Below are positions 11,745 through 24,278 of a DNA stretch of 64,000 nucleotides, in pieces. The DNA lies in assembly GCA_022447205.1 (NCBI GenBank), contig JAKVBQ010000012.1:11108-75107 (forward strand), read 5' to 3'. Numbering within the stretch: position 1 is the stretch's first letter; every line of letters starts with the position of its first letter. The translations under genes were made by a program, and so were the position numbers. Origin of the DNA: Phycisphaerales bacterium (GTDB lineage: Bacteria > Planctomycetota > Phycisphaerae > Phycisphaerales > SM1A02). The notes beneath the pieces are model-generated. The model saw nothing but the letters and a program-made list of their open reading frames with translations. It ran no database searches and was not told the origin of the DNA.

Positions 11745-11777
11745 GGTAGGCGTCAACACCCCGTGGAGGATCATTCG

Positions 11778-13607
11778 ATGTCTGACAGGGAGACCCCCCT
11801 CGAATTCAGGAAGCTGATCGGACTCGTCCGAGGTCGACTCGCTCTCGAGCGATTCCTTGCCGGCATCCATGACTGCCTCGTGGTCTCCCTGGTCCTGGTC
11901 CTCCTCCTGGTCGTCGTCTCCAAGCTCACGCCCGCGGTGGCTCCGGTGTGGTGGATCGTCTTCACGGCACTTGGCGTGGGGTCACTTCTCGGTGCATTGG
12001 TGCTGGCTCGACGGGGCCGGTTGTCGGACTCCGCCATCGCTGCACTGATCGACGAGCGTCTTGAACTTCGAGATCGATTCAGCACCGCGCTGCATTGCGC
12101 CGGTCGAGACGATCCCTTCGCCCGGGCGGCCCTCGACGAGGCATTGTCCGTGGCGCGTGATGCGGAAAACAGGCGCCGCCTTGCCCGCGAATTCGCTCCC
12201 CGCGCTCCCGGTGGTTCATGGGTCGCGCCCCTCATCGGGGTGATCGCCTTCGTGCTCTGGTTCAGCGTGCCTGCGGGCGATGTCTTCGCCTCGACCGACG
12301 AGGAGGGAATGCAGGCGGCCGACGAGGAACGACTTGCCGTCGAGGACACGATCAGAACCGTGCTCGACCAGATCGAGGAGAACCCGGAGCTCAACGAAGA
12401 GCTTGGGGACGTCGCGAACAACTTCGCGCTCGATGAAGGTCGCCCCGACGGCGAGATGGATTCGGAAGAGGCGCGTCGAGAGGCGTTGCGGAAGGTCTCC
12501 GAACTCGAGCAGCGACTCGACGAACTCGTCAACGGCGAGAAGGGCAAGGAGATGGACGCCATGGAGCGTGCTCTCTCCGAGATGGAGGACGTCGGGGACG
12601 GCGATGCTCGTGAACTGTCGCAGGCCCTGAAGGATGGTGACTTCTCCAAGGCACAGGAGGCCCTCGAGAAGATCGAGAAGGAGCTCGCCGAGCAGGACAT
12701 GACCGATGAACAGCGTGCGGAACTCGCCGAGCAGCTCAAGGAGATGGCGGAACAGCTCAAGAAGGCTTCGGAGAACAAGGACGCCCTCAAGGATGCGTTG
12801 AAGCGAGCGGGTCTGGATCCCGCCCTCGCCAACAACCCGGAGGCCCTCAAGCAGGCGATGCAGCAGGCCGGCCAGCTCAACGAACAGCAGATGCAGCAGC
12901 TCCAGAACATGGCGAAGGCCCAGCAGTCCGCCAACTCCAGCTGCAAGAACATGAGTGATGCGATGTCGCAGATGGCGCAGCAGTGCCAGCAGGGTCAGCC
13001 CGGTGCCTCGCAGGGGCAGCAGATGCAGCAGATGCTCTCCCAGGCCGACCAGATGCAGCAGATGCTCATGCAGGCGAAGTCCGCCCAGGGCCAGTGCCAG
13101 GGCAACAGCGCCTCGAGTCTCGGCCAGAACTTCGCCAGCATGCTGCCCTCGAAGCCCCAGCCCGGCGATCAGCAGCAGCGTCCGCCCGGCAACGGTTTCG
13201 GCTCGCAGCCCAACGGCGGCGGCACCGGCAACGCACCGATCCAGGAGACGAAGTTCGGTACCCGGCTCCAGAAGGAACAGGTCGCACTCCAGGAGGGCGG
13301 CGACGTCATCTCCCGCCAGCTCATCGAATCCAGCAACCCCGTGGTCGGTGAATCCACCGTCGAGATCCAGGCCACGGCCGATCGCATCATCCGCGGTTGG
13401 GAGGAGGGGGCACGGGATGAACTCGTCCCGGCACATCGACGGGAAGGCGTCAAGGGCTACCTTGGTGAACTGACCCGGAGACTGAATGCCAGGCGACGAG
13501 CCGAAACCTCCGGTGACACCGAAGGCGCTGCGCCCGCCGGGGAGACCGGCGACGCTCCCGCTGAAACCGAGGCCGCACCGTCCGGTGAGTCGACTCAGTC
13601 GGAGTGA
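11778..13607 (+). CDS. Membrane protein with long coiled coil and Gln/Met-rich region
   Basis: 609 residues. The N-terminal half has a helical pair of membrane segments (LVVSLVLVLLLVVVSKL and VPVWW-type stretch following) and a third near residue 155 (LIGVIAFVLWFSV), then a very acidic coiled coil (residues about 175-350) and a low-complexity part rich in Gln and Met (about 350-470, many MQQM/QQGQ units). The layout resembles DUF4175-type proteins that accompany MoxR/VWA genes in planctomycetes, but I assign no function. Start ATG 11778 has GGAGGA seven bases upstream. It overlaps the next gene as GTGA. Confidence 0.7.
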   Translation: MSDRETPLEFRKLIGLVRGRLALERFLAGIHDCLVVSLVLVLLLVVVSKLTPAVAPVWWIVFTALGVGSLLGALVLARRGRLSDSAIAALIDERLELRDRFSTALHCAGRDDPFARAALDEALSVARDAENRRRLAREFAPRAPGGSWVAPLIGVIAFVLWFSVPAGDVFASTDEEGMQAADEERLAVEDTIRTVLDQIEENPELNEELGDVANNFALDEGRPDGEMDSEEARREALRKVSELEQRLDELVNGEKGKEMDAMERALSEMEDVGDGDARELSQALKDGDFSKAQEALEKIEKELAEQDMTDEQRAELAEQLKEMAEQLKKASENKDALKDALKRAGLDPALANNPEALKQAMQQAGQLNEQQMQQLQNMAKAQQSANSSCKNMSDAMSQMAQQCQQGQPGASQGQQMQQMLSQADQMQQMLMQAKSAQGQCQGNSASSLGQNFASMLPSKPQPGDQQQRPPGNGFGSQPNGGGTGNAPIQETKFGTRLQKEQVALQEGGDVISRQLIESSNPVVGESTVEIQATADRIIRGWEEGARDELVPAHRREGVKGYLGELTRRLNARRRAETSGDTEGAAPAGETGDAPAETEAAPSGESTQSE

Positions 13608-14695
13608 TCACGCTCGTGCGCGTACTCGACCTGGGCACGTCCGCCATCATCTGCACGATTCTCCTGGCCACGTTGCTCCTTCACGGGTGTGACCGGGCTT
13701 CGTCCGACCCCAGGCCGGTCGTGGTCTACGTCTCCGCCGACGAGGCGATCGCGCGACCGATCCTCCAGCAATTCGAAGCGGCCACCGGCATCGAGGTCCT
13801 GCCGGTCTTCGATACCGAGGTCACCAAGACCACCGGCCTGGTGACACGACTGAGGTCCGAGCGGGAACGGCCACGAGCCGACCTGTTCTGGTCCAGCGAA
13901 TGCTTCAGGATGATCGAGCTGGACCAGGATGGCATGCTCGCGCCGCTGACCGGGGCACCGTTCGACGACTGGATGTCCGGAAGGGCTGGTCTCTGGCGCT
14001 CCGATGCCGGAACCTGGCACGCATTCGCTCCGCGCGCCCGTGTCCTCGTGCATCGTGTCGAGGAGGCCGGTGAGCGTGAGACACCACTCCCGGGTACCTG
14101 GTTCGAACTTGCCGACCCTCGTTGGAAGGGGCGGATCGCGATGGCGGATCCGCGCTTCGGGACGACCAGTGGTCACCTCGGCGCCATGAAGGCCTACTGG
14201 ATTCGGGACGGAAGACCGGAGCGCTTCGATGACTGGGTGGACGGGCTCGCGGGGAACGAGGTTGCGATCCTCACCACCGGCAACGCCGGCGTGGTCGAAG
14301 CGGTCGCTGCCGGCCGTTACGACATCGGCATGACCGACACCGATGATGTCTGGGCCGCCCGGGAGCGTGGCTTCGACGTGGCGCTCATCTACCCGCGACA
14401 TGCCTCGGCTGATCGGGTCGGTGGCGGCACGCTGCTCATCCCCAACACCGTGGCGAGGATCGTCGGTGGTCCGAACCCCGAAGGCGCACACGCCCTTGCG
14501 CGGTGGCTGCTCTCCGAAGAGGTCGAGGATCTTCTGGCCCGTTCGAGTTCCCACAACATCCGACTCCGCTCCGACGGAACGGATCCCTACGACGTCCCTG
14601 ATGTCCTTGACGTCGATCTCGTCGAGGCCAGTGCGCAGATGCCGGAAGCGATCCGGCGGCTTCGTGGCGCAGTACGGACCGGTGGCGAGGAATGA
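13604..14695 (+). CDS. ABC transporter substrate-binding lipoprotein (Fe3+ type)
   Basis: 363-residue extracellular solute-binding protein of the FbpA/AfuA group. The signal ends in a lipobox (LLHGC, Cys29), followed by the first strand VVVYVSADEAIARPILQQFE, typical of this group. Later blocks such as RADLFWSSECF, GRIAMADPRFGTTSGHLGAM and GRYDIGMTDTDD fit the ligand-binding cleft. It would deliver a metal or small anion to a membrane permease. GTG start overlaps the previous stop, and its stop overlaps the permease fusion start as ATGA. No ATPase gene is found beside it. Confidence 0.85.
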   Translation: MITLVRVLDLGTSAIICTILLATLLLHGCDRASSDPRPVVVYVSADEAIARPILQQFEAATGIEVLPVFDTEVTKTTGLVTRLRSERERPRADLFWSSECFRMIELDQDGMLAPLTGAPFDDWMSGRAGLWRSDAGTWHAFAPRARVLVHRVEEAGERETPLPGTWFELADPRWKGRIAMADPRFGTTSGHLGAMKAYWIRDGRPERFDDWVDGLAGNEVAILTTGNAGVVEAVAAGRYDIGMTDTDDVWAARERGFDVALIYPRHASADRVGGGTLLIPNTVARIVGGPNPEGAHALARWLLSEEVEDLLARSSSHNIRLRSDGTDPYDVPDVLDVDLVEASAQMPEAIRRLRGAVRTGGEE

Positions 14696-17193
14696 GCGCG
14701 ACGTGGTGCTTGCCGGCACGACTTTCCGGTCTCCTGTCCTGTCTCCTCATCGGGCTGGCCCTTCTCTGGCCTGCAGCCTGCTCGCTCGGGTCGATGTTCG
14801 AGGCCGACCCGGTCGATCCATCGCTCCTTGACGGTTCCGCGTTCCTTCGCACCCTGGGATGGGCCGTTCTGGTCGCACTGGTGTCGATCCCGCTCGGGGT
14901 GGCGGGGGCATCCGCCCTTGCCCGGGTCATTCGTGGAGGGCGGGGAGCGCCGGTCGCGCTGTTTCTCGTGACTGCGCCGTTGTGTGTTCCCGGGTATGCC
15001 GTCTTCTGGTGCTGGTGGCAGTTCTTCGGGCCCGGTTCGACGATCGGTGCACTGGCACTTCGCATGGATGCCGCGGTGTTCCTGCGGGAAGTCGTGCTGC
15101 TGGTCGCACTCGCCTGCTGGTCCTGGCCACTCGTGACCTGGCCGCTGGTCCTCTCCCGATTGCATCGAGCCGATTCCGCCAGGGTGCTGGGAGATCTCGA
15201 TGGCGCACCATGGCACCGGCGACTCGCACTTCGCTGGCGCGAGGATCGTGCCGCGCTTCTGCTGGGGTGTGCGCTCGTCGCGTTCCTCACGGCGAGTGCG
15301 ACGGTGTCGTTCGATCTCGCTCAGGTGGTGACGGTCGGATTCGAACTGCGTGCGCTCGATGCGACCGGCGCATCCCCCGGTGCACTCCTGCGGTTGTCCC
15401 TGCCGGCGGTGGCGCTCGCCCTCGCGGGCGGACTCCTGATTCCCGGATTGCTTCGAGTCACCACTCGTCGCTGGCGTTCGAGTCGGGGACTGCGCATGGA
15501 CGTCCCTTCGGGAAGCGCGCGGCCGTGGATGGTGCTGGGCCTCCTCGCCGGGGGGACGATGCTCGTTCCACTGGGCATCGCGATCCTCGGGGTGCGATCA
15601 CTCGATCCGAGTCTCTTCTGGACGCTGCATGCCACCGCCGTCCTTCGGACCCTGACCGGAGCCTTGCTCGACGGTCTGGTCGGCGCCGCCCTGGCCGGTG
15701 CCATCTTCCTTCAGATCGTTCATGGTGGACGTTTCCTGCGCACCGTCGGCGTGGTGTTCGGGATCCTCTGGATCGGTGCCGCACTCCTGCCGTCGATCTC
15801 CATCAGTGCGGGGTTGACCGCTGCCTACAACGGTGACGTCCTCGGGCCGTTCTTCTATGACAACGGCCTGGTGCTGCTCCTCGGTCACCTCACGCGAAGT
15901 GGTGGTGTCGTGGCGGCGATCGCGATGGTGGCGGCATTCATCGAACGAGGCTCGAAAGCCGATGCACGTCGACTCGATCCGCCGCGCCTCGGTGGAGTCC
16001 TTCCAAGGTTCCGAAGTACGATGCTCCTCGCGTTCGCGGTCTCCGCTGTGGCTTCACTCGGTGAGCTCGTCATGACCGCACGACTTGCACCGCCTGGAGA
16101 TGGACGGATCGCCACGACCCTGCTCAATGCAATGCACTACCAGCGTCCGGACACGGTCCTCGTCGCCCTGGCCGGCCTGGTCCTGACCGGCTGGCTGCTT
16201 GCGGTCCTGCTGGTGCGGCTCCTGCCGCGGACGTCGGGGTTCCCGGGCTCGCTCCTGCTCCTCCTTGCCGTCCTGCCGATCCTGCCGGCGTGCACCGAGG
16301 AACCTGCACCGAAAACCGGTTCGGTGGTTCCCTCCGACATCCTGGTGGGCGCACCCGGACGCGGCCCCGGACTCTTCGACTTCCCGCGAGGCATCGCACT
16401 CGATCCGACGCGTCCCGCCTTCTACGTGGTGGACAAGACCTCCCGAATCCAGCGCTTCTCCCTCGATGGGCGGTACGAGACCGGTTGGCAGCTCCCGGAG
16501 TGGCGGGTGGGTCGGCCGGTCGGCATCTCGGTGGCCCCGGATGGTCGGGTCTTCGTTCCCGACACGCATTACCACCGCATCATCATCTACGACCCGGAAG
16601 GCAACGAGCTGCAGCGGTTCGGTTCCTTCGGGACCGGTCCCGGCGAGTTCGTCTACCCGACCGACATCGCCTTCGGACCGGATGGTTCGCTCTACATCGC
16701 GGAGTACGGCACCAACGACCGGATCCAGGTCTTCGACCAGGAGGGGACCTATCTCCGGGAGTTCGGACGCTTCGGACGTGAACAGGACGCCTTCGCCCGA
16801 CCGCAGTCGATCGCACTCTCCACCGATCGAAACGAACTCTACGTCGCCGACACCTGCAACCATCGCATCGGCGTGCATGCGCTTGACGGCACCTGGCTGC
16901 GTTCACTCGCGGGCCCCGGGACCGAGCCCGGTCAGCTCTCCTATCCGCATGGTCTCGAGCTCCTGCCCGATGGCACCCTGCTCGTGAGTGAGACCGGTAC
17001 CGATCGGGTGCAGCGCCTCGATGCCCTGACCGGAGCAAGCCTGGGGACGTGGGGGACCGCGGGATTCCGCCGCGGTCAGTTGAGGACCCCCTGGGGTGTC
17101 GCCAGTGACGGCGAACGCCTCCTGGTGCTGGACTCCGGGAACGCCAGGGTCCAGATCGGACCGCTTCCCGAGCGCCGGCACGATCGGCCCTAG
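14692..17193 (+). CDS. ABC permease fused to NHL-repeat beta-propeller
   Basis: 833 residues in two parts. Residues 1 to about 510 are a hydrophobic ABC permease of the FbpB/iron type with two six-segment-like halves; LGELVMTARLAPPGDGRIATTLLNAMHY is the conserved cytoplasmic-loop region of the second half, written here across its key residues LGE, PPG and MHY, and a weaker loop (DGAPWHRRLAL) occurs in the first. Residues 534-833 form an NHL propeller with units such as FDFPRGIALDP, PVGISVAPDGRVFVPDT and YPTDIAFGPDGSLYIAEYG. The junction holds a lipobox-like LPILPAC with Cys534, and an in-frame GTG at 16213 could start a separate 326-residue lipoprotein. Either way the propeller lies outside the membrane. 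It follows the binding lipoprotein by a 4-base overlap. Confidence 0.8.
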   Translation: MSATWCLPARLSGLLSCLLIGLALLWPAACSLGSMFEADPVDPSLLDGSAFLRTLGWAVLVALVSIPLGVAGASALARVIRGGRGAPVALFLVTAPLCVPGYAVFWCWWQFFGPGSTIGALALRMDAAVFLREVVLLVALACWSWPLVTWPLVLSRLHRADSARVLGDLDGAPWHRRLALRWREDRAALLLGCALVAFLTASATVSFDLAQVVTVGFELRALDATGASPGALLRLSLPAVALALAGGLLIPGLLRVTTRRWRSSRGLRMDVPSGSARPWMVLGLLAGGTMLVPLGIAILGVRSLDPSLFWTLHATAVLRTLTGALLDGLVGAALAGAIFLQIVHGGRFLRTVGVVFGILWIGAALLPSISISAGLTAAYNGDVLGPFFYDNGLVLLLGHLTRSGGVVAAIAMVAAFIERGSKADARRLDPPRLGGVLPRFRSTMLLAFAVSAVASLGELVMTARLAPPGDGRIATTLLNAMHYQRPDTVLVALAGLVLTGWLLAVLLVRLLPRTSGFPGSLLLLLAVLPILPACTEEPAPKTGSVVPSDILVGAPGRGPGLFDFPRGIALDPTRPAFYVVDKTSRIQRFSLDGRYETGWQLPEWRVGRPVGISVAPDGRVFVPDTHYHRIIIYDPEGNELQRFGSFGTGPGEFVYPTDIAFGPDGSLYIAEYGTNDRIQVFDQEGTYLREFGRFGREQDAFARPQSIALSTDRNELYVADTCNHRIGVHALDGTWLRSLAGPGTEPGQLSYPHGLELLPDGTLLVSETGTDRVQRLDALTGASLGTWGTAGFRRGQLRTPWGVASDGERLLVLDSGNARVQIGPLPERRHDRP

Positions 17194-17254
17194 TGCGCCC
17201 CGACCGGCCGGTGCGAGCGCTCGTCCTTTTCCACGCTTCTGCTGCCGACTCGGG

Positions 17255-17260
17255 TAGAAT
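17255..17260 (+). promoter_or_regulatory. -10 box TAGAAT before the VWA/MoxR operon
   Basis: TAGAAT lies 28 bases before the ATG at 17289, in the only gap (95 bases) of the 11778-24278 run, so the VWA genes probably have their own promoter. Confidence 0.5.
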
Positions 17261-17288
17261 CCGGACAGGAAGGGCGCGTTGACGAGCA

Positions 17289-20288
17289 ATGTTCGAGGAA
17301 CTTCCCATCCAATTCGAGGAACCCGGGTGGTTGCTGCTGCTCCTGCTGCTGGTCCCGACCTGGCTGATCGTGCTCCGTCATGGTGGAGCACTCTCCCGGA
17401 CCCGTCGCGTCCTCACCCTCTCCGTCCGGGCGATCCTGATCCTGCTGCTTTCGATGGCACTCGCCAGACCGAGCTGGGTCGAACGTGGCGAGGCGCTCAC
17501 CGTCACGGTGATCTCCGACGTCAGTCGTTCGATCCCCCTCGACCAGCGGGTTCGCTCCACTTCCCTGGTCCAGGAGCTCCTCGGAAACAAGAAGGAGACC
17601 GACGATCGCATCGCCGCGGTCGGTCTTGGTGCCGAAGCGCAGCCCAGTGCGAGGCCGGATCCCGAGACGATCGTCGATCTGGATGCCTACGACGGCGTGC
17701 GCACCGCGACCGACCTCGCCGCCGGCGTGGAGCAGGCGCTCTCGCTCCTGCCGGTCGACACCGCAAATCGACTGCTCCTGATCTCCGACGGGAACCAGAC
17801 CCGGGGGAACGTCCTCGAGGCGGCGGAGCTGGCTCGTGCCAACGGCATCCCGATCGACGTGATCCCGATCCGCTACGAGTACGAGAACGAGGTCCTGATC
17901 GAGAGCGTGAAGGTGCCCACCCGGGCCCGTCTCGGCCAGACCGCGGACCTGAAGATCTTCTTCCGCAGCCAGAACCCGACGAGCGGTCGCCTGCAGGTCC
18001 TGCAGAACGACGTGCCGATCATCCTCGACCCCGAGACCTCGGCCACCACCGTGCGCGTCTCGTTGCCTGCGGGACCGGAAGTCCTGAGCTTCCCCATCAG
18101 TCTCGATCAGGGGGGTGCACATCGCTTCCGAGCGTTGTTCGAACCGGATGACGCTGCTGCCGACGGACTCCAGGAGAACAATCGCGGTGATGCGGTGACC
18201 TTCGTCGCCGGAGACGGACGGGTGCTGATCATCGACGGGATGGCCGGCGAGGGTGCCGCCCTGCAGAAGGCGCTCGAACAGGGGGGGATCGAGGTCGAGG
18301 TCCGGACCACGGACGCCCTCTCGATCGGTCCCGAGTACCTCAATGGATTCGATGCGGTGGTGCTGGCGAACGTTCCGCGATGGTCGATCGACAACGTCAC
18401 CGACAGCACGCTCCGCTCCTACGTTCACGACCTTGGTGGCGGTCTCCTGATGCTCGGTGGTGACGCTTCCTTCGGCGCGGGCGGGTGGATCGACTCGCAG
18501 ACCGCCAAGGCGCTGCCGGTCCGGCTCGATCCGCCACAGCAGCGCCAGATGGTGCGTGGTGCACTGGCGTTGATCATGCACTCCACCGAGATGGATCGTG
18601 CGAACTTCTGGGGACAGCAGACCGCGATCGCGGCGATCGATGCCCTGACCAGCCTCGACTACATCGGCATCCTCACCTACAACTGGGGTGGTCAGGGCCC
18701 CAACAGGAACGGTTCGAGCTGGGCGCTTCCGATGCAGGAGGCCGGGGACAAGCAGGCCGCCTATGCAGCGGCGAAGTCGATGGTCGTCGGCGACATGCCC
18801 GACTTCCAGGCTTCCTTCGAACTTGCCTACGAGGGACTCGATCCGCTGCCTGCCGGTCAGAAGCACGTGATCGTGATCAGTGACGGCGATCCGTACCCGC
18901 CGACGAGCGGCCTGATCCAGAAGTACATCGACGCCAAGATCACCGTGACCACCATCATGTATGCCGGGCACGGCACCGCGATCCATCGACAGAACATGCG
19001 GGTCGTCGCGGAGGCGACCGGTGGTCGCTTCTACAACGAGCCCAGCCCGAAGAACCTGCCGAAGATCTTCAACAAGGAGGCATCGGTCGTCGCCCGTTCC
19101 CTGATCAACGAGGGCGACTTCACGCCGGTGGTCGCCTCCTCGATCACCGGTCCGACCAAGGGGATCGGACAGGTGCCGAATGTCCGCGGTTACGTCCTCA
19201 CCGTGCCGCGCAAGGGTTCTGCCGCCGACATCCCGATGACCATCCTCTCCAGCGAAGGGGAGGATCCGCTGTATGCCTACTGGAACTACGGACTCGGCAA
19301 GTCCGTCGCGTTCACCAGCGACCTGTCCGGTCGCTGGGGATCTGCCTGGACGAGTTGGAGCGGTTTCCAGCGCATGTGGGAACAGACCATCCGCTGGCTG
19401 ATGCGTCCGGCCTCGCCGTCGAACGTGCTCGTCCGGACCCGCACCGAGGGCGAACTCGCGATCATCGAACTTGAAGCCTCCGAGGACGAGACCGGTTTCA
19501 TCAACTACCTCCAGACGGACGCGCGGGTGCTTGCGCCGGACGGTTCGGTCGATGTCCTTGATCTCCAGCAGGTGGGGCCGGGTCGCTATCGAGGTGAGTT
19601 CGCGGCCATCGATGCGGGTGCCTACCTCGTCAACGTCGGCTTCCCGGTCCGGGGGAGCGACGGCGAGGTCGTGGTGCGCAACGTGCAGGGCGCGGTGTCG
19701 GTTCCCTATGCCAAGGAGTTCCGATCGGTCCGTGACAACGGAGCGCTCCTCGCGACGATCGCGGATCGCACCGGTGGTCGAGTGATCGAGATCGACACGA
19801 ACCCCGAGTCGATCGACCTCTTCGAGCGCGGGACCCTCGAGGTGCCCCTGGCCCCCAAGCGGGTCTGGGATCTCCTGGCGATCATCGCCGCGGGTCTCTT
19901 CCTGCTCGACGTCGCGACCCGGCGCCTGTCCTTCGACACGCGTTCCGCACGAGAGGCCGCTGCTCGTGCGGTGGCTCGCACCGAAGAGACCTCCGAAGCC
20001 TCGGTCGCCGCCTGGAAGCGTGCTCGCAGCAAGGCGCGTGGGGGACGTCGAAAGGACTCGGCCGCTGCTCATGACCAGGACCAGGCAGCGGCTTCCACCG
20101 AGGGGACCCAGGAGTCTTCGGCTCCCGCCTTCGATGTCGCGGAGGAACTCTCCGGTGAGCCTCGCACGACACCGGACGCTCCGGCGCCACGTCCGCGTAC
20201 CGAAGGTCCTGAATCCGGTGAGAGCAGTCTCGATCGACTGAAACGTGCCAAGCGTCGCGTGAGCGGTGAAGAGGACGACGCAAGATGA
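17289..20288 (+). CDS. Large VWA / GATase1-like membrane protein
   Basis: 999 residues. Two N-terminal membrane segments (WLLLLLLLVPTWLIVL and AILILLLSMALA) precede a von Willebrand A domain with MIDAS start VISDVSRSIPLD (DxSxS) and LLLISDGNQT. A glutamine-amidotransferase-like domain follows (VLIIDGMAGEG ... GGGLLMLGGDASFGAGGW). A second VWA-like domain has VIVISDGDPYPPT but begins LALIMHSTEMD, lacking the first MIDAS aspartate. A C-terminal membrane segment (VWDLLAIIAAGLFLLDVA) leads to a charged tail of about 130 residues. Such proteins accompany MoxR and are thought to act in envelope assembly or metal insertion. First gene of a four-gene operon with 4-base overlaps. Confidence 0.85.
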   Translation: MFEELPIQFEEPGWLLLLLLLVPTWLIVLRHGGALSRTRRVLTLSVRAILILLLSMALARPSWVERGEALTVTVISDVSRSIPLDQRVRSTSLVQELLGNKKETDDRIAAVGLGAEAQPSARPDPETIVDLDAYDGVRTATDLAAGVEQALSLLPVDTANRLLLISDGNQTRGNVLEAAELARANGIPIDVIPIRYEYENEVLIESVKVPTRARLGQTADLKIFFRSQNPTSGRLQVLQNDVPIILDPETSATTVRVSLPAGPEVLSFPISLDQGGAHRFRALFEPDDAAADGLQENNRGDAVTFVAGDGRVLIIDGMAGEGAALQKALEQGGIEVEVRTTDALSIGPEYLNGFDAVVLANVPRWSIDNVTDSTLRSYVHDLGGGLLMLGGDASFGAGGWIDSQTAKALPVRLDPPQQRQMVRGALALIMHSTEMDRANFWGQQTAIAAIDALTSLDYIGILTYNWGGQGPNRNGSSWALPMQEAGDKQAAYAAAKSMVVGDMPDFQASFELAYEGLDPLPAGQKHVIVISDGDPYPPTSGLIQKYIDAKITVTTIMYAGHGTAIHRQNMRVVAEATGGRFYNEPSPKNLPKIFNKEASVVARSLINEGDFTPVVASSITGPTKGIGQVPNVRGYVLTVPRKGSAADIPMTILSSEGEDPLYAYWNYGLGKSVAFTSDLSGRWGSAWTSWSGFQRMWEQTIRWLMRPASPSNVLVRTRTEGELAIIELEASEDETGFINYLQTDARVLAPDGSVDVLDLQQVGPGRYRGEFAAIDAGAYLVNVGFPVRGSDGEVVVRNVQGAVSVPYAKEFRSVRDNGALLATIADRTGGRVIEIDTNPESIDLFERGTLEVPLAPKRVWDLLAIIAAGLFLLDVATRRLSFDTRSAREAAARAVARTEETSEASVAAWKRARSKARGGRRKDSAAAHDQDQAAASTEGTQESSAPAFDVAEELSGEPRTTPDAPAPRPRTEGPESGESSLDRLKRAKRRVSGEEDDAR

Positions 20289-21364
20289 GCGAACTCGAGC
20301 ATCTCCTGCGATCCGATGACCCGGCAGCGGCCTGCGAGGCCTTTCGCACCGCGTTCTCCGAACTCCGGTCGGAGATCGGCAAGGTGCTCGTCGGCCAGGA
20401 TGACGTGGTGGAGGAGGTGCTCGTCGCGCTCTTCGCCGGCGGCCATGTCCTTCTGGAAGGTGTGCCGGGGCTCGGCAAGACCCTGCTCGTGAGGACCCTC
20501 GGCGATGCCCTGAGTCTCGACTTCACGAGGATCCAGTTCACGCCGGACCTCATGCCCGCCGACATCACCGGGACCAGCATCGTGACCGAGGACCCGACGA
20601 CGGGGCATCGAACGATCACCTTCCGGCCGGGTCCCATCTTCAGCCAGCTGGTTCTCGCCGACGAGATCAATCGGGCGTCGCCGAAGTCCCAGGCCGCACT
20701 CCTCGAGGCGATGCAGGAGCGTTCGGTCTCCGCCGGTGGCACCACCCATCGGCTCGAGGCGCCGTTCTTCGTCATGGCGACGCAGAATCCCATCGAACAG
20801 GAAGGGACCTACCCGCTCCCCGAGGCGCAACTCGATCGCTTCCTGCTCAAGGTCACCGTCCCGTACGCACGTCGTGACGAGATGAACGAGATTCTCCATC
20901 GAACCACCGCCGGCATCTCGAACCAGGCGCGAAGCGTGCTCGATGGCCCGACGATCCTGGCCGCACAGGAGCTGGCTCGTCGCATCGTGGTCGCCCCGTT
21001 GGTCAAGGACTACATCGTCCGACTGGTGCTGGCGACGCATCCGGACGGTCCACATCAGCCGCGCGCCCTCGAGCACACGATCTCGGTGGGTGCGAGTCCG
21101 CGTGCCGCTCAGTCCCTGATGCTGACCGCGAAGGTGCTCGCGATGATCGACGGTCGGTACCACGTCTCGATTCACGACGTGGTCCGGCTGGCTCGACCGG
21201 TGCTCCGACATCGCCTGATCCGGACGTTCGAGGCCGAGACCGATGGGCGTTCCGTGGATGACATCGTGGATGCCGTGATCGCTGAAGTCCCGATCGATCC
21301 GGAACGGACCGAGCCGGTCCGGTTGATCCCGGGCGCTCTCAGTGGGGAGGAGCGATTCGGATGA
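20285..21364 (+). CDS. MoxR-family AAA+ ATPase
   Basis: 359-residue AAA+ chaperone-like ATPase. Walker A is GVPGLGKT (residues 59-67), Walker B VLADEINRA (about 123-131), sensor 1 FFVMATQNPIEQEGTYPLPE, followed by the MoxR-type DRF motif and a C-terminal lid. MoxR proteins remodel or load VWA-domain partners; here it sits between two VWA genes and a DUF58 gene, the usual set. Overlaps both neighbours by four bases, implying coupled translation and fixed stoichiometry. Confidence 0.95.
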   Translation: MSELEHLLRSDDPAAACEAFRTAFSELRSEIGKVLVGQDDVVEEVLVALFAGGHVLLEGVPGLGKTLLVRTLGDALSLDFTRIQFTPDLMPADITGTSIVTEDPTTGHRTITFRPGPIFSQLVLADEINRASPKSQAALLEAMQERSVSAGGTTHRLEAPFFVMATQNPIEQEGTYPLPEAQLDRFLLKVTVPYARRDEMNEILHRTTAGISNQARSVLDGPTILAAQELARRIVVAPLVKDYIVRLVLATHPDGPHQPRALEHTISVGASPRAAQSLMLTAKVLAMIDGRYHVSIHDVVRLARPVLRHRLIRTFEAETDGRSVDDIVDAVIAEVPIDPERTEPVRLIPGALSGEERFG

Positions 21365-22299
21365 GCAGCTTCTCCTCCGACCAGCCGAGAGTCGTGCGCC
21401 CCGAGCGGGTCGACGACCTCATCGATTCGGGATTGATGGCCCGACTCGAGCGGCTCGACGTCATCAGCCGGAAGATCTTCACCGGTCGTGTCCAGGGCGA
21501 ACGGCGTTCGCGGCGACGGGGCATGAGCGTCGAGTTCGCCGACTTCCGACCCTACGTGCATGGAGACGACCTTCGTTTCGTCGATTGGAACATCTACGGA
21601 CGGCTCGACCGGCTCTTCATGAAGATCTTCCTCGAGGAGGAGGATCTCTCCTTGATGATCGCGGTCGACACCAGTGCCTCGATGGACTGGGGGACACCGA
21701 ACAAGTTCGAATACGCTCGTCGTCTCGCGATGGCACTCGGCTACATCGGACTCGTCAACCACAATCGCGTCTCGCTCTGTTCGTTCGGGGAGACCGGCGG
21801 ACTCCAGCGCCTGTCGAACCTGAGGGGACGGCGCCGGACCAGGGAGATGGGGCAGTGGCTGCTCGATCTCGAACCCGGGGGAGCGGGCACCTTCGACGAG
21901 GCGATGAAGACGGTCGCGCATGCCCGAATGGGTCGCGGTGTGATGGTGGTGCTTTCGGACTTCCTCTTCAAGGAGGGCTACGAGCACGGGCTTCGCGCCG
22001 TCGCCGGTCGAGGCTTCGACGTCTTCGGGGTGCAGATGCTTTCACCGGAGGAACTCGAGCCCGGTCCACGCGGCCTGTCCGGTGACGTCAAGCTCATCGA
22101 CCTCGAGGACGAGGAGGAGACCGAGGTCACCGTGAGCCAGAAGGTGTTGTCGACCTATCGGGAGAACCTGAACCGGTACTGCGGTGCTTTGCGGGACTAC
22201 TGCGTGCGTCGTGACATCACCCACATGCTCGTGGACACCTCGACCGAACTCGAGGTCCTGCTCACGGAGTACTTCCGTCGCAGGGGGCTGCTCAGATGA
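21361..22299 (+). CDS. DUF58 domain protein
   Basis: 312 residues with the DUF58 signature EFADFRPYVHGDDLRFVDWN and, after it, a VWA-like strand with MIDAS residues (LMIAVDTSASMDWG, DxSxS). DUF58 proteins are the constant third partner of MoxR and BatA-like proteins. The product appears cytoplasmic, as no membrane segment is evident. Stop and next start overlap (ATGA). Confidence 0.92.
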   Translation: MSSFSSDQPRVVRPERVDDLIDSGLMARLERLDVISRKIFTGRVQGERRSRRRGMSVEFADFRPYVHGDDLRFVDWNIYGRLDRLFMKIFLEEEDLSLMIAVDTSASMDWGTPNKFEYARRLAMALGYIGLVNHNRVSLCSFGETGGLQRLSNLRGRRRTREMGQWLLDLEPGGAGTFDEAMKTVAHARMGRGVMVVLSDFLFKEGYEHGLRAVAGRGFDVFGVQMLSPEELEPGPRGLSGDVKLIDLEDEEETEVTVSQKVLSTYRENLNRYCGALRDYCVRRDITHMLVDTSTELEVLLTEYFRRRGLLR

Positions 22300-24278
22300 C
22301 CTGGCTGACACCACTCACCGGGCTGATCGTCGCGGGTGTGATCCTGCCTCCGCTGCTGCTGCTCTACTTCCTGAAGCTGCGGAGGACGTCCCGCTCGATC
22401 CCGAGCACCATGCTCTGGCGTCGTTCGGTCGAGGATGTCCGTGCCAACGCGCCCTTCCAGCGTCTGCGACCGAGCATCCTGCTCCTGCTCCAGCTCCTGG
22501 TGCTGCTCCTCCTCGTGCTCGCACTCGCCCAGCCCCAGTTCGACGGCTCATCCAGCGCAGGGGGTCGCACCGTCATCGCGATCGACAATTCCGGTTCGAT
22601 GAACACCACCGACGACCCCTCCGGTCGAACCCGGCTCGAGCTCGCCAAGGAAGCCGCGGTCGCGAGGATCGAGAAGCTCCATGGCGGAGGCCTCTTCTCG
22701 GGCGGCACCGAGGAGATCATGGTCGTCTCCTTCGCCGATGGCGCGGAGGTCAGGACACCCTTCACCGACTCGCGAACCCAGGCGATCGCCGCGGTGCGAT
22801 CGATCGAGCCCACCGACGAGAACACGACGATCGGTGAGGCACTCGAACTCGCACGTGCTTTCACGATGACGCTGGACCCCGAAGAGAGCGGAAGTGCGGA
22901 GTCCGTCGAGGAGCCTGCGATGTTCGAGGTGTTCTCGGATGGCAGGATCGCGGATCTCGACGACGAGCCCCTCCGAGGGGGGGAGTCGGCTCGCTACACC
23001 GTGCTCGGCGAGGAACAGACCGGGAACCTCGGTCTCGTCACCGTTGCCGCCGACAGGCCCTGGGACAAGCCGAACCAGATCCAGGTCTTCGCGGTCGTCG
23101 CCAATCATTCCATGGAGGACGTCAAGGTCGACCTGGAGCTCCGGGTCGGTGGCGTCGCGCGTGCACTCACCCCGGAGCCGGTGCTGGTGCCGGCCGGTTA
23201 CGAGGATCCCGAGACGGGGGTCTGGAAGCCGGGGCGTGAGCGGGTCGTCTTCCTGCCCTTCGACCAGCCACGAGAAGCACGCATCGAGGTCCGACTCCTC
23301 CACGAGGACGATCTTGATGCGGATGACTTCGCACGCCTGGTCGTTCCCTCGCCGAAGCAATTGCGGGTGGCGCTGGTCGGGCAGCTCGAATGGTTCATGC
23401 AGAAGCTGCTCGAGGCCCAGAACTTCGAGCGCCTCGACCTGCTCACCGGTTCGCAGTACGAGGCGGCGATCGACGACGGCGAGACATGGGATGTCGTGAT
23501 CTGTCTCGGGTATTCCCCGGAGACGTTCGTCCCCGGACGCTACCTGGTGTTCAACAGCACCACCGGGATCGATGCGCTCGAACCGTTCGGTGTCGCGGAG
23601 AAGGTCTTCGTCCGCAGCGTGCAGGATGAACACCCCGCGTTCCGGTACGTGGTGCTCGATGACCTCTTCATCTGGACGATGCCCAAGGTCGTCGCGGGTG
23701 ATGATGCGACCGTGCTCACCGACGCCGTCGAGGGACCGCTGGTCGTCGAGATCGATCGTGCCGGGATCCAGGTGCTCTGGGTCGCCTTCCACCCGCTCGA
23801 CTCCACATGGTGGCGACAGAGGAGTTTCGCGATCTTCGTGCCCAACGCGATCGAGTACCTCGCTTCGATCGGTGGTGCGGTGGTCGAGAAGGGACTCTCG
23901 CCCGGCGAGGCGATCTCGATGCTCGTGCCCGCGGGATCGACCGGAGGCCGCGTGACGCGACCCGACGAATCGACCGATGAGGCCCTGATCTCGCCCGACG
24001 GCATGCTGGTCTGGGGTCCGGTCAGGCGTGCCGGTTCCTACGGACTCTCATGGATCGGTCCGGACGGCACCGAGGGTGCCGCGGAGGTCGCGGTCAACAT
24101 GATGTCCGAGGAGGAAGGCCGGGTCGGGGCGAGGGAATCGATCGAGTTCAGCGTGGACACCGTCAGCGGTCGTCGTGCGATCACGAGCTCGCGCAACGCA
24201 CTCTGGCCCTGGCTGCTGGGCATCGGCCTGGTGATCCTGCTCTTCGAGTGGTACGTCTACTTCCGCAAGTCGGCCTGA
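22296..24278 (+). CDS. BatA-like VWA membrane protein
   Basis: 660 residues. The N-terminal BatA region has two membrane segments (VILPPLLLLYFLKLRR and ILLLLQLLVLLLLVLALAQP) with the conserved sequence between them (SIPSTMLWRRSVED). A VWA domain begins with IAIDNSGSMNTTDD (Asp97, Ser99, Ser101 form the MIDAS). A middle beta-rich part and a C-terminal membrane segment (WPWLLGIGLVILLFEWYVYF) complete it. Together with MoxR and DUF58 it likely forms a membrane complex. Last gene of the operon, convergent with the TPR-YggX gene three bases later. Confidence 0.9.
   Translation: MTWLTPLTGLIVAGVILPPLLLLYFLKLRRTSRSIPSTMLWRRSVEDVRANAPFQRLRPSILLLLQLLVLLLLVLALAQPQFDGSSSAGGRTVIAIDNSGSMNTTDDPSGRTRLELAKEAAVARIEKLHGGGLFSGGTEEIMVVSFADGAEVRTPFTDSRTQAIAAVRSIEPTDENTTIGEALELARAFTMTLDPEESGSAESVEEPAMFEVFSDGRIADLDDEPLRGGESARYTVLGEEQTGNLGLVTVAADRPWDKPNQIQVFAVVANHSMEDVKVDLELRVGGVARALTPEPVLVPAGYEDPETGVWKPGRERVVFLPFDQPREARIEVRLLHEDDLDADDFARLVVPSPKQLRVALVGQLEWFMQKLLEAQNFERLDLLTGSQYEAAIDDGETWDVVICLGYSPETFVPGRYLVFNSTTGIDALEPFGVAEKVFVRSVQDEHPAFRYVVLDDLFIWTMPKVVAGDDATVLTDAVEGPLVVEIDRAGIQVLWVAFHPLDSTWWRQRSFAIFVPNAIEYLASIGGAVVEKGLSPGEAISMLVPAGSTGGRVTRPDESTDEALISPDGMLVWGPVRRAGSYGLSWIGPDGTEGAAEVAVNMMSEEEGRVGARESIEFSVDTVSGRRAITSSRNALWPWLLGIGLVILLFEWYVYFRKSA

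Follow-up and report, generated by a model that had tools for sequence, protein, structure and literature searches.

Can a single bacterial gene encode both a membrane-embedded transporter subunit and a lipoprotein anchored in its own right? The question is raised by a plus-strand frame at positions 14692-17193 of a 64,000-nucleotide stretch of DNA, hereafter the window, from the draft genome of a Phycisphaerales bacterium (assembly GCA_022447205.1, contig JAKVBQ010000012.1, positions 11,108 to 75,107). The frame runs from a permease of the ATP-binding cassette (ABC) transporter type into an NHL beta-propeller. A preliminary description of this DNA had noticed a lipoprotein signal at the joint and offered two explanations, either a true fusion that holds the propeller on the outer face of a transporter, or two genes that overlap in the same frame, the second starting at GTG 16213. 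Our analysis suggests a third reading, absent from that description, which appears to fit best: the fused chain would be processed at its internal signal into two proteins. We put the probability that the gene encodes such a polyprotein, with the internal lipoprotein signal processed by Lgt and LspA, at roughly two in three.

The frame and its parts are as originally placed. No stop codon interrupts the 833 codons across the joint, Cys534 is encoded by codon 16291-16293, and GTG 16213-16215 specifies Val508. An AlphaFold model of the 833-residue protein is confident in both domains, with a mean predicted local distance difference test (pLDDT) of 92.8 and a predicted template modelling score (pTM) of 0.91. 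For the permease half, no match was returned by Pfam (E up to 0.01, BPD_transp_1 included), by NCBIfam (E up to 1) or by a single-sequence search of the PDB (E up to 0.1). As Pfam and NCBIfam gave no name, this half is named from profile and structure comparisons only. Searching with the family profile (71 members) finds 9j4r_A, which is an iron ABC permease (E 1.6e-20, positions 24-513), and structure alignment of the AlphaFold model to the same chain gives a Z of 31.2 with 468 of 490 residues aligned (model range 21-514). By fold, the first half is an FbpB-type ferric-importer permease; the label 'iron-type' used in the preliminary description is right in this sense, and covers the fold, not the substrate. 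Since the permease alignment ends at residue 514, the seam falls where an FbpB-type permease naturally ends, the last permease helix comprising residues 486-510 in the model. The BPD_transp_1 domain likewise goes undetected at E 0.01 in two relatives (L080 and L134), whereas relatives with an adjacent ATPase gene do match it (L270, E 9e-10; L278, E 1.6e-6). A lipobox-like WPAAC motif (14767-14781, with Cys30) closes the first permease helix; Cys30 is absent from the list of conserved columns, and the motif is probably due to chance. In the second half, the NHL repeats form a closed propeller, with model strands from 550 to 824, which aligns to 6xg7, the NHL domain of Drosophila Thin (scores in Table 1). 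Against the ScyF propeller family (NCBIfam NF035926) it reaches 136.8 bits, below the curated cut-off of 350.

The same fusion recurs in relatives. We searched 151 genomes, namely this one and 150 relatives; 115 gave a match at 1e-15, and loci were fetched and classified for 105 of them, ten with weaker propeller matches being left out. Permease and propeller share one frame in 83 of the 105 and are separate genes in 13, among which G011 is counted although its two parts (L085, L086) sit at contig ends; four genomes have a propeller-ATPase gene, four have the propeller alone detected, and one has the permease alone. Broken down by our family codes, the fusion is present in 72/76 genomes of f1, 4/15 of f2, 1/1 of f3, 6/6 of f4, 0/1 of f5 and 0/6 of f6, and thus in 79 of 83 for f1, f3 and f4 combined. 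In f2, the propeller is a separate gene in 10 of 15 genomes, with its own lipobox (by eye). The preliminary description had allowed that homologues might always keep the two parts as separate genes, which these counts contradict. In a phylum-wide sample of 294 genomes, 93 have a match at 1e-25, which in most cases covers just the propeller half. At L080:4049-11128 (G023), the permease and propeller genes lie about 4 kb apart within an otherwise kept cluster, and the propeller retains its lipobox; at L084/L158 (G059), the permease is present and no propeller was found between it and the vWA gene.

Once 45 named loci, many of them identical places, were added, fused open reading frames (ORFs) numbered 127, some of them from one genome fetched twice; 103 distinct joint sequences remained. 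These joints were chosen for a single open frame, so that their being in frame is no finding and the fair count is the one per genome given above. Alignment A1 holds 71 sequences, 70 of them from the 102 distinct joints other than that of the gene studied here; the length filter was passed by 91. An assembly or sequencing error that deleted a stop codon or a frameshift between two genes can practically be dismissed. The source is an 86-contig draft genome, and several loci are imperfect (L073 and L191/L261 are broken within the permease, L130 has unknown bases, and L085/L086 lie at contig ends), but the fusion is found in 103 distinct joints, and in L038 it stands on a single-contig chromosome record (CP070772.1). 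The stop-free frame is therefore real. An apparent triple fusion of permease, propeller and vWA in L130 was rejected, as its frame crosses the run of unknown bases.

Judged by its sequence, the joint is a textbook lipoprotein signal, with n-region, h-region, lipobox and Cys, and the earlier observation of a complete signal at residues ~508-534 ending in LPAC is borne out. Such signals usually stand at the N-terminus, whereas this one begins about 508 residues into the frame. In the model, helix 486-510 gives way to a brief loop that carries two Arg; a second helix of 12 residues (519-530) follows, then LPA-Cys534, and beyond it a tether modelled with low confidence. The joint Cys is kept by every one of the 71 aligned homologues while the surrounding linker varies freely, and it is the only column more than 80% identical between 490 and 552 (57/57). 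Among the 103 distinct joints there are 30 linker lengths, ranging from 30 to 98 residues. Residue -1 is G in 71 joints, A in 16, S in 15 and N in one; K, R, D and E are all absent from positions -12 to -1; and at each of positions -25 to -17, K or R occurs in 17-31% of the joints and D or E in 0-4%. Downstream of the Cys, the sequence of the family turns to P, S, E and D. The uncharged span ahead of the Cys has a median of 17 residues (quartiles 15-18), compared with 26 (24-27) for the last permease helix, and the core is shorter than 18 residues in 75 joints. We scored the joints with a composition rule of our own, which demands a charge-free 12-residue core in whose first 11 positions Q, N and H are likewise excluded, G, A or S at -1, and an n-region of net positive charge. 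Of the 103 distinct fused joints, 97 pass this lipobox rule; when the linkers were shuffled, a mean of 2.1 of 103 did so. The procedure that picked the joint Cys favoured G, A or S at -1, and the choice in L151 was set by hand; the alignment-column test is independent of the picker. LspA (E 3.1e-27) and Lgt (E 2.6e-54) are both encoded in this genome.

The same propeller lipoprotein is also found behind another partner. In five Planctomycetota family codes (f6, f17, f32, f33 and f84) it is fused to an FbpC-like ABC ATPase, in 20 distinct genes (e.g. L155:6042-7868, L154, L097, L095, L241 and L243-L250); the ATPase profile took in propeller sequence in some rows, and a match was accepted as a fusion only where it started within the ATPase part. 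The joint reads Gly-Cys in all 20 distinct genes and in 18 of 18 aligned (alignment A2, from which L280 was left out), and 17 of 20 conform to the lipobox rule. Two of these fusions were run against Pfam, and both match ABC_tran and NHL, one of them also matching TOBE above the cut-off. The ATPase part was compared with FbpC chain 9j4r_B, the match covering positions 4-313 of the profile and 5-332 of the 340 residues of the chain; as this is nearly all of the chain, the lipoprotein signal begins close to the natural C-terminus of the subunit. In a model of L155 (pLDDT 90.0, pTM 0.52), a strand (297-302) is followed by a helix (305-317), the signal starting near the last ATPase strand. In L262, L267, L270 and L278, three genes stand in the order permease, ATPase, propeller. 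One lipoprotein, as read from these sequences, is joined with its signal kept to two different subunits of one importer, and a signal retained behind two different partners is probably used. A propeller tree of 163 domains, made by a quick method with 51 of 160 inner branches left open, requires at least eight changes among three states, a minimum given that many deep branches are weak, and one that does not fix the number or direction of fusions and splits; the state 'split' means that neither profile matched upstream in frame, and L085 was counted so. Well-supported branches alone force at least three gains or losses of the permease fusion.

We propose that a single chain would be translated, consisting of the FbpB-type permease, with its last membrane helix ending in the cytoplasm, a short positive loop and the lipoprotein signal. 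FbpB-type permeases have their C-terminus in the cytoplasm. Under the positive-inside rule, the positive loop would be cytoplasmic, so that the next hydrophobic stretch would run outward and both lipobox and propeller would be periplasmic, the orientation required by Lgt and LspA. The internal signal would export the NHL propeller to the periplasm, where Lgt would lipidate Cys534 and signal peptidase II (LspA) would then cut ahead of this residue, freeing the propeller. The old signal would be left on the permease as a short hydrophobic C-terminal tail, and the propeller would become an ordinary membrane-anchored lipoprotein beside the permease, presumably at a 1:1 dose. We also lean modestly towards a broader proposal, namely that signal peptidase II serves Planctomycetota as a protease for maturing polyproteins, a lipoprotein gene with intact signal having been joined to an FbpBC-type permease or ATPase and the partners being separated after synthesis.

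Several observations weigh against a cut chain and have to be set against this proposal. Six of 103 permease joints and three of 20 ATPase joints fail the lipobox rule, and in 18 of 103 permease halves some Cys also passes it. A single gene's match could therefore be chance, whereas the family's invariant Cys could not, and it is conservation rather than any single match that carries the claim. The LPAC motif has Pro at -2, outside the [ASTVI] of the textbook consensus as given in a passage of PMC8048626, yet Pro is present at -2 in 19 of 103 joints. Moreover, the uncharged span in the gene studied here is 20 residues and could simply span the membrane, and lipidation without cleavage would keep the Cys equally well. 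The main rival is a permanent fusion, perhaps lipidated at Cys534 but uncut, in which the lipobox segment acts as an extra membrane anchor and the propeller sits on the outer face of the permease. Besides the 20-residue span, the in-frame joint kept in 79 of the 83 f1, f3 and f4 genomes and the confident modelling of both domains are in its favour. We nevertheless regard a permanent fusion as unlikely, as a plain anchor requires neither an invariant Cys nor G, A or S at -1 and fails to explain why the core is short in most members, and as relatives encode the propeller as a separate lipoprotein (in sister genera) or joined to the ATPase. Of the true fusion envisaged in the preliminary description, the in-frame joining is strongly supported by homologues, while a cut chain fits better than a propeller held on the outer face.

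The remaining points against the polyprotein concern translation. Ribosomes might also start inside the gene, here at GTG 16213, and make a free prolipoprotein besides the fused chain; this start would give a normal 26-residue signal ahead of the Cys. Between Cys-32 and -14, 94 of 103 joints contain an ATG, GTG or TTG, a mild enrichment over shifted windows (74-87 of 100-103), and 52 of 103 contain an ATG (28-46 in shifted windows). The best Shine-Dalgarno (SD) score averages -4.24 at the joint versus -2.48 to -3.79 in shifted windows, and it reaches -8 in 12 of 103 joints versus 2-8. When equal 70-codon windows are scanned, 5' ends (-6.11) score no better than gene middles (-5.69 to -6.42), and the SD scan is therefore evidence neither way. 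Against internal starts, no start position is conserved, Met reaching at most 10% at any of positions -32 to -13, and nine of the 103 joints lack ATG, GTG or TTG where one would be required, L135 being without any in 60 codons, with the Cys kept in all. The ATPase fusions behave alike: the conserved TOBE Val codon is GTT in six, GTC in six, GTG in four and absent in four, all of which keep the Cys, and L245 keeps it with start codons absent at -34 to -13. Nor would anything tie separately translated halves to one frame, which nearly all of f1, f3 and f4 nevertheless keep. Internal initiation is not the common mechanism; it may help in some species, possibly here, and we consider it a rather improbable account of this locus, so that the overlapping genes of the preliminary description gain little.

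The function of the permease is a separate matter. No ATPase gene lies beside the fused gene. None of the 47 ABC_tran matches of this genome is on contig C4, in agreement with the earlier remark that the neighbouring binding lipoprotein lacks an ATPase beside it. The accompanying idea that the propeller replaces the ATPase finds no support and was rejected, since in relatives the propeller stands beside an ATPase gene or is fused to it. The EAA loops (15172-15237 and 15958-16017) look, by eye in the alignment, recognisable but degenerate in fused members and closest to canonical in L251, L262, L267, L270 and L278, all with an ATPase gene beside the permease. The permease-propeller may have changed job, importing nothing and serving as a signalling or tethering part of the MoxR/vWA/BatA cluster, a reading that concerns function and is compatible with the polyprotein. 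In favour of this are the contig without an ABC ATPase, the apparent state of the loops, and the vWA homologue that 192 of 227 loci contain in the fetched stretch (these loci are all those matching the fused protein, with repeats and short stretches counted, so that such counts mean within reach, not adjacency). However, in L155 and L246, where ATPase and propeller are fused, the second EAA loop likewise looks degenerate by eye, so that EAA decay does not simply follow ATPase loss, and binding protein and permease are both conserved. An ATPase could also be supplied in trans by a lone FbpC/MalK-like gene (L281:6754-7878, G000:C10), beside which no permease or binding protein was seen by eye and whose flanking genes we take to be TrmE and Der. 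On balance, the fused permease may borrow an ATPase in trans, with G000:C10 as candidate, or may have changed job, the latter being conceivable but doubtful. Elsewhere in this genome, C54 carries an apparent binding protein-permease-ATPase operon (by eye).

Table 1. Coordinates in the window of the fused gene, its parts and the neighbouring genes
Feature	Position	Strand	Basis or remark
Fused gene: FbpB-type permease, internal lipoprotein signal, NHL propeller	14692..17193	+	833 aa, open frame
Permease part, residues 1-514	14692..16233	+	9j4r_A (FbpBC, Thermus) profile and structure alignment
GTG (Val508), internal start suggested by the preliminary description	16213..16215	+	anti-SD duplex -2.9 kcal/mol, a measure without discriminating power
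n-region / predicted cytoplasmic loop, residues 509-518, two Arg	16216..16245	+	family K/R enrichment; model shows no helix at 511-518
h-region and lipobox LPA, residues 519-533	16246..16290	+	model helix 519-530; all 103 joints charge-free from -12 to -1
Cys534, predicted lipidation site and predicted N-terminus of mature propeller	16291..16293	+	invariant 71/71 and 57/57
Flexible tether after Cys534, residues 535-549	16294..16338	+	pLDDT <50 at 535-538 and 540-542; family rich in P, S, E, D
NHL propeller, residues 550-824	16339..17163	+	Pfam NHL E 9.4e-31; Z 41.6 to 6xg7
Coiled-coil membrane protein, upstream	11763..13607	+	no Pfam match; homologue in fetched stretch in 90/227 loci
Solute-binding lipoprotein	13604..14695	+	Pfam SBP_bac_11 E 4e-11; stop overlaps start of fused gene by 4 bases
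vWA and GATase1-like protein, next after fused gene	17289..20288	+	Pfam; homologue in fetched stretch in 192/227 loci
MoxR AAA+ ATPase	20285..21364	+	Pfam AAA_3 E 1.1e-61
DUF58 protein	21361..22299	+	Pfam E 6.4e-34
BatA/vWA protein	22296..24278	+	Pfam VWA_2 E 2.2e-16, BatA E 9e-13

The region 11763-24278 forms one conserved cluster with several 4-base start/stop overlaps, and its order (coiled-coil protein, solute-binding protein, permease-propeller, vWA/GATase1-like protein, MoxR, DUF58, BatA/vWA) is repeated in loci with sufficient flanking sequence, such as L037, L038, L040 and L041. The solute-binding protein has an N-terminal lipobox, LLHGC (by eye), and its best NCBIfam match is phnS2 at E 5e-14, with 52 bits against a cut-off of 393. 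Homologues of the binding protein occur within the fetched stretch in 145 of the 227 loci, of MoxR in 92, of the DUF58 protein in 86 and of BatA in 83. A vWA homologue also accompanies the ATPase-fused and separate-gene relatives. We guess that importer and MoxR/vWA cluster share the propeller as an accessory or sensor.

Making one long chain and then cutting it in two, as this cell probably does, is rarely ascribed to bacteria, and a literature search of titles and abstracts, with partial coverage, found no description of such a fusion of permease or ATPase with a lipoprotein propeller. If the chain is cut, these genes would represent a widespread family of bacterial polyproteins that mature through the lipoprotein pathway and come with either of two partner types. 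Lgt and LspA would then accept signals placed behind hundreds of residues, even behind a folded cytoplasmic ATPase, and lipoprotein searches limited to N-termini would miss such proteins. The dose and birthplace of the propeller would be tied to the transporter, and a cytoplasmic ATPase would carry an exported lipoprotein on its tail. If the chain is left uncut, the transporter would instead carry on its outer face a propeller held by lipid, likewise an unusual arrangement.

Several known systems share features with this one. The permease aligns nearly full length with that of Thermus thermophilus FbpBC (PDB 9j4r, from the FbpABC ferric ion importer), and the ATPase fusions match 9j4r_B; unlike in FbpABC, there is here no adjacent ATPase gene, the EAA loops look degenerate by eye and a lipoprotein propeller has been added. 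The presence of MoxR, vWA and a propeller in one cluster recalls the MoxR-vWA-beta-propeller ternary systems (Pfam bpMoxR). However, the MoxR protein fits AAA_3 far better than bpMoxR (E 1.1e-61 and 1.9e-15, respectively) and the propeller, an NHL lipoprotein, belongs to a transporter unit, and we claim no membership of those systems. With ordinary bacterial lipoproteins the joint shares n-region, h-region, lipobox, Cys and a flexible tether rich in acidic residues, Pro and Ser, although its signal is internal, behind about 500 permease residues or about 300 ATPase residues. In ABC importers of the GlnPQ and OpuA type, binding domains are fused to the permease and remain attached. The present chain resembles these in combining an extracytoplasmic domain with a permease, and differs in having a conserved lipoprotein signal at the seam, an NHL propeller as that domain and a separate binding protein. 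Finally, the nearest precedent is Bradyrhizobium FbcH, which our literature search did not turn up; reportedly, signal peptidase I cuts this cytochrome b/c1 polyprotein at a signal inside the chain. There too, one gene would encode an integral membrane protein followed by an exported protein whose signal is kept inside the chain; the signal described here is instead of the lipoprotein type, and the predicted cut would be made by signal peptidase II after lipidation.

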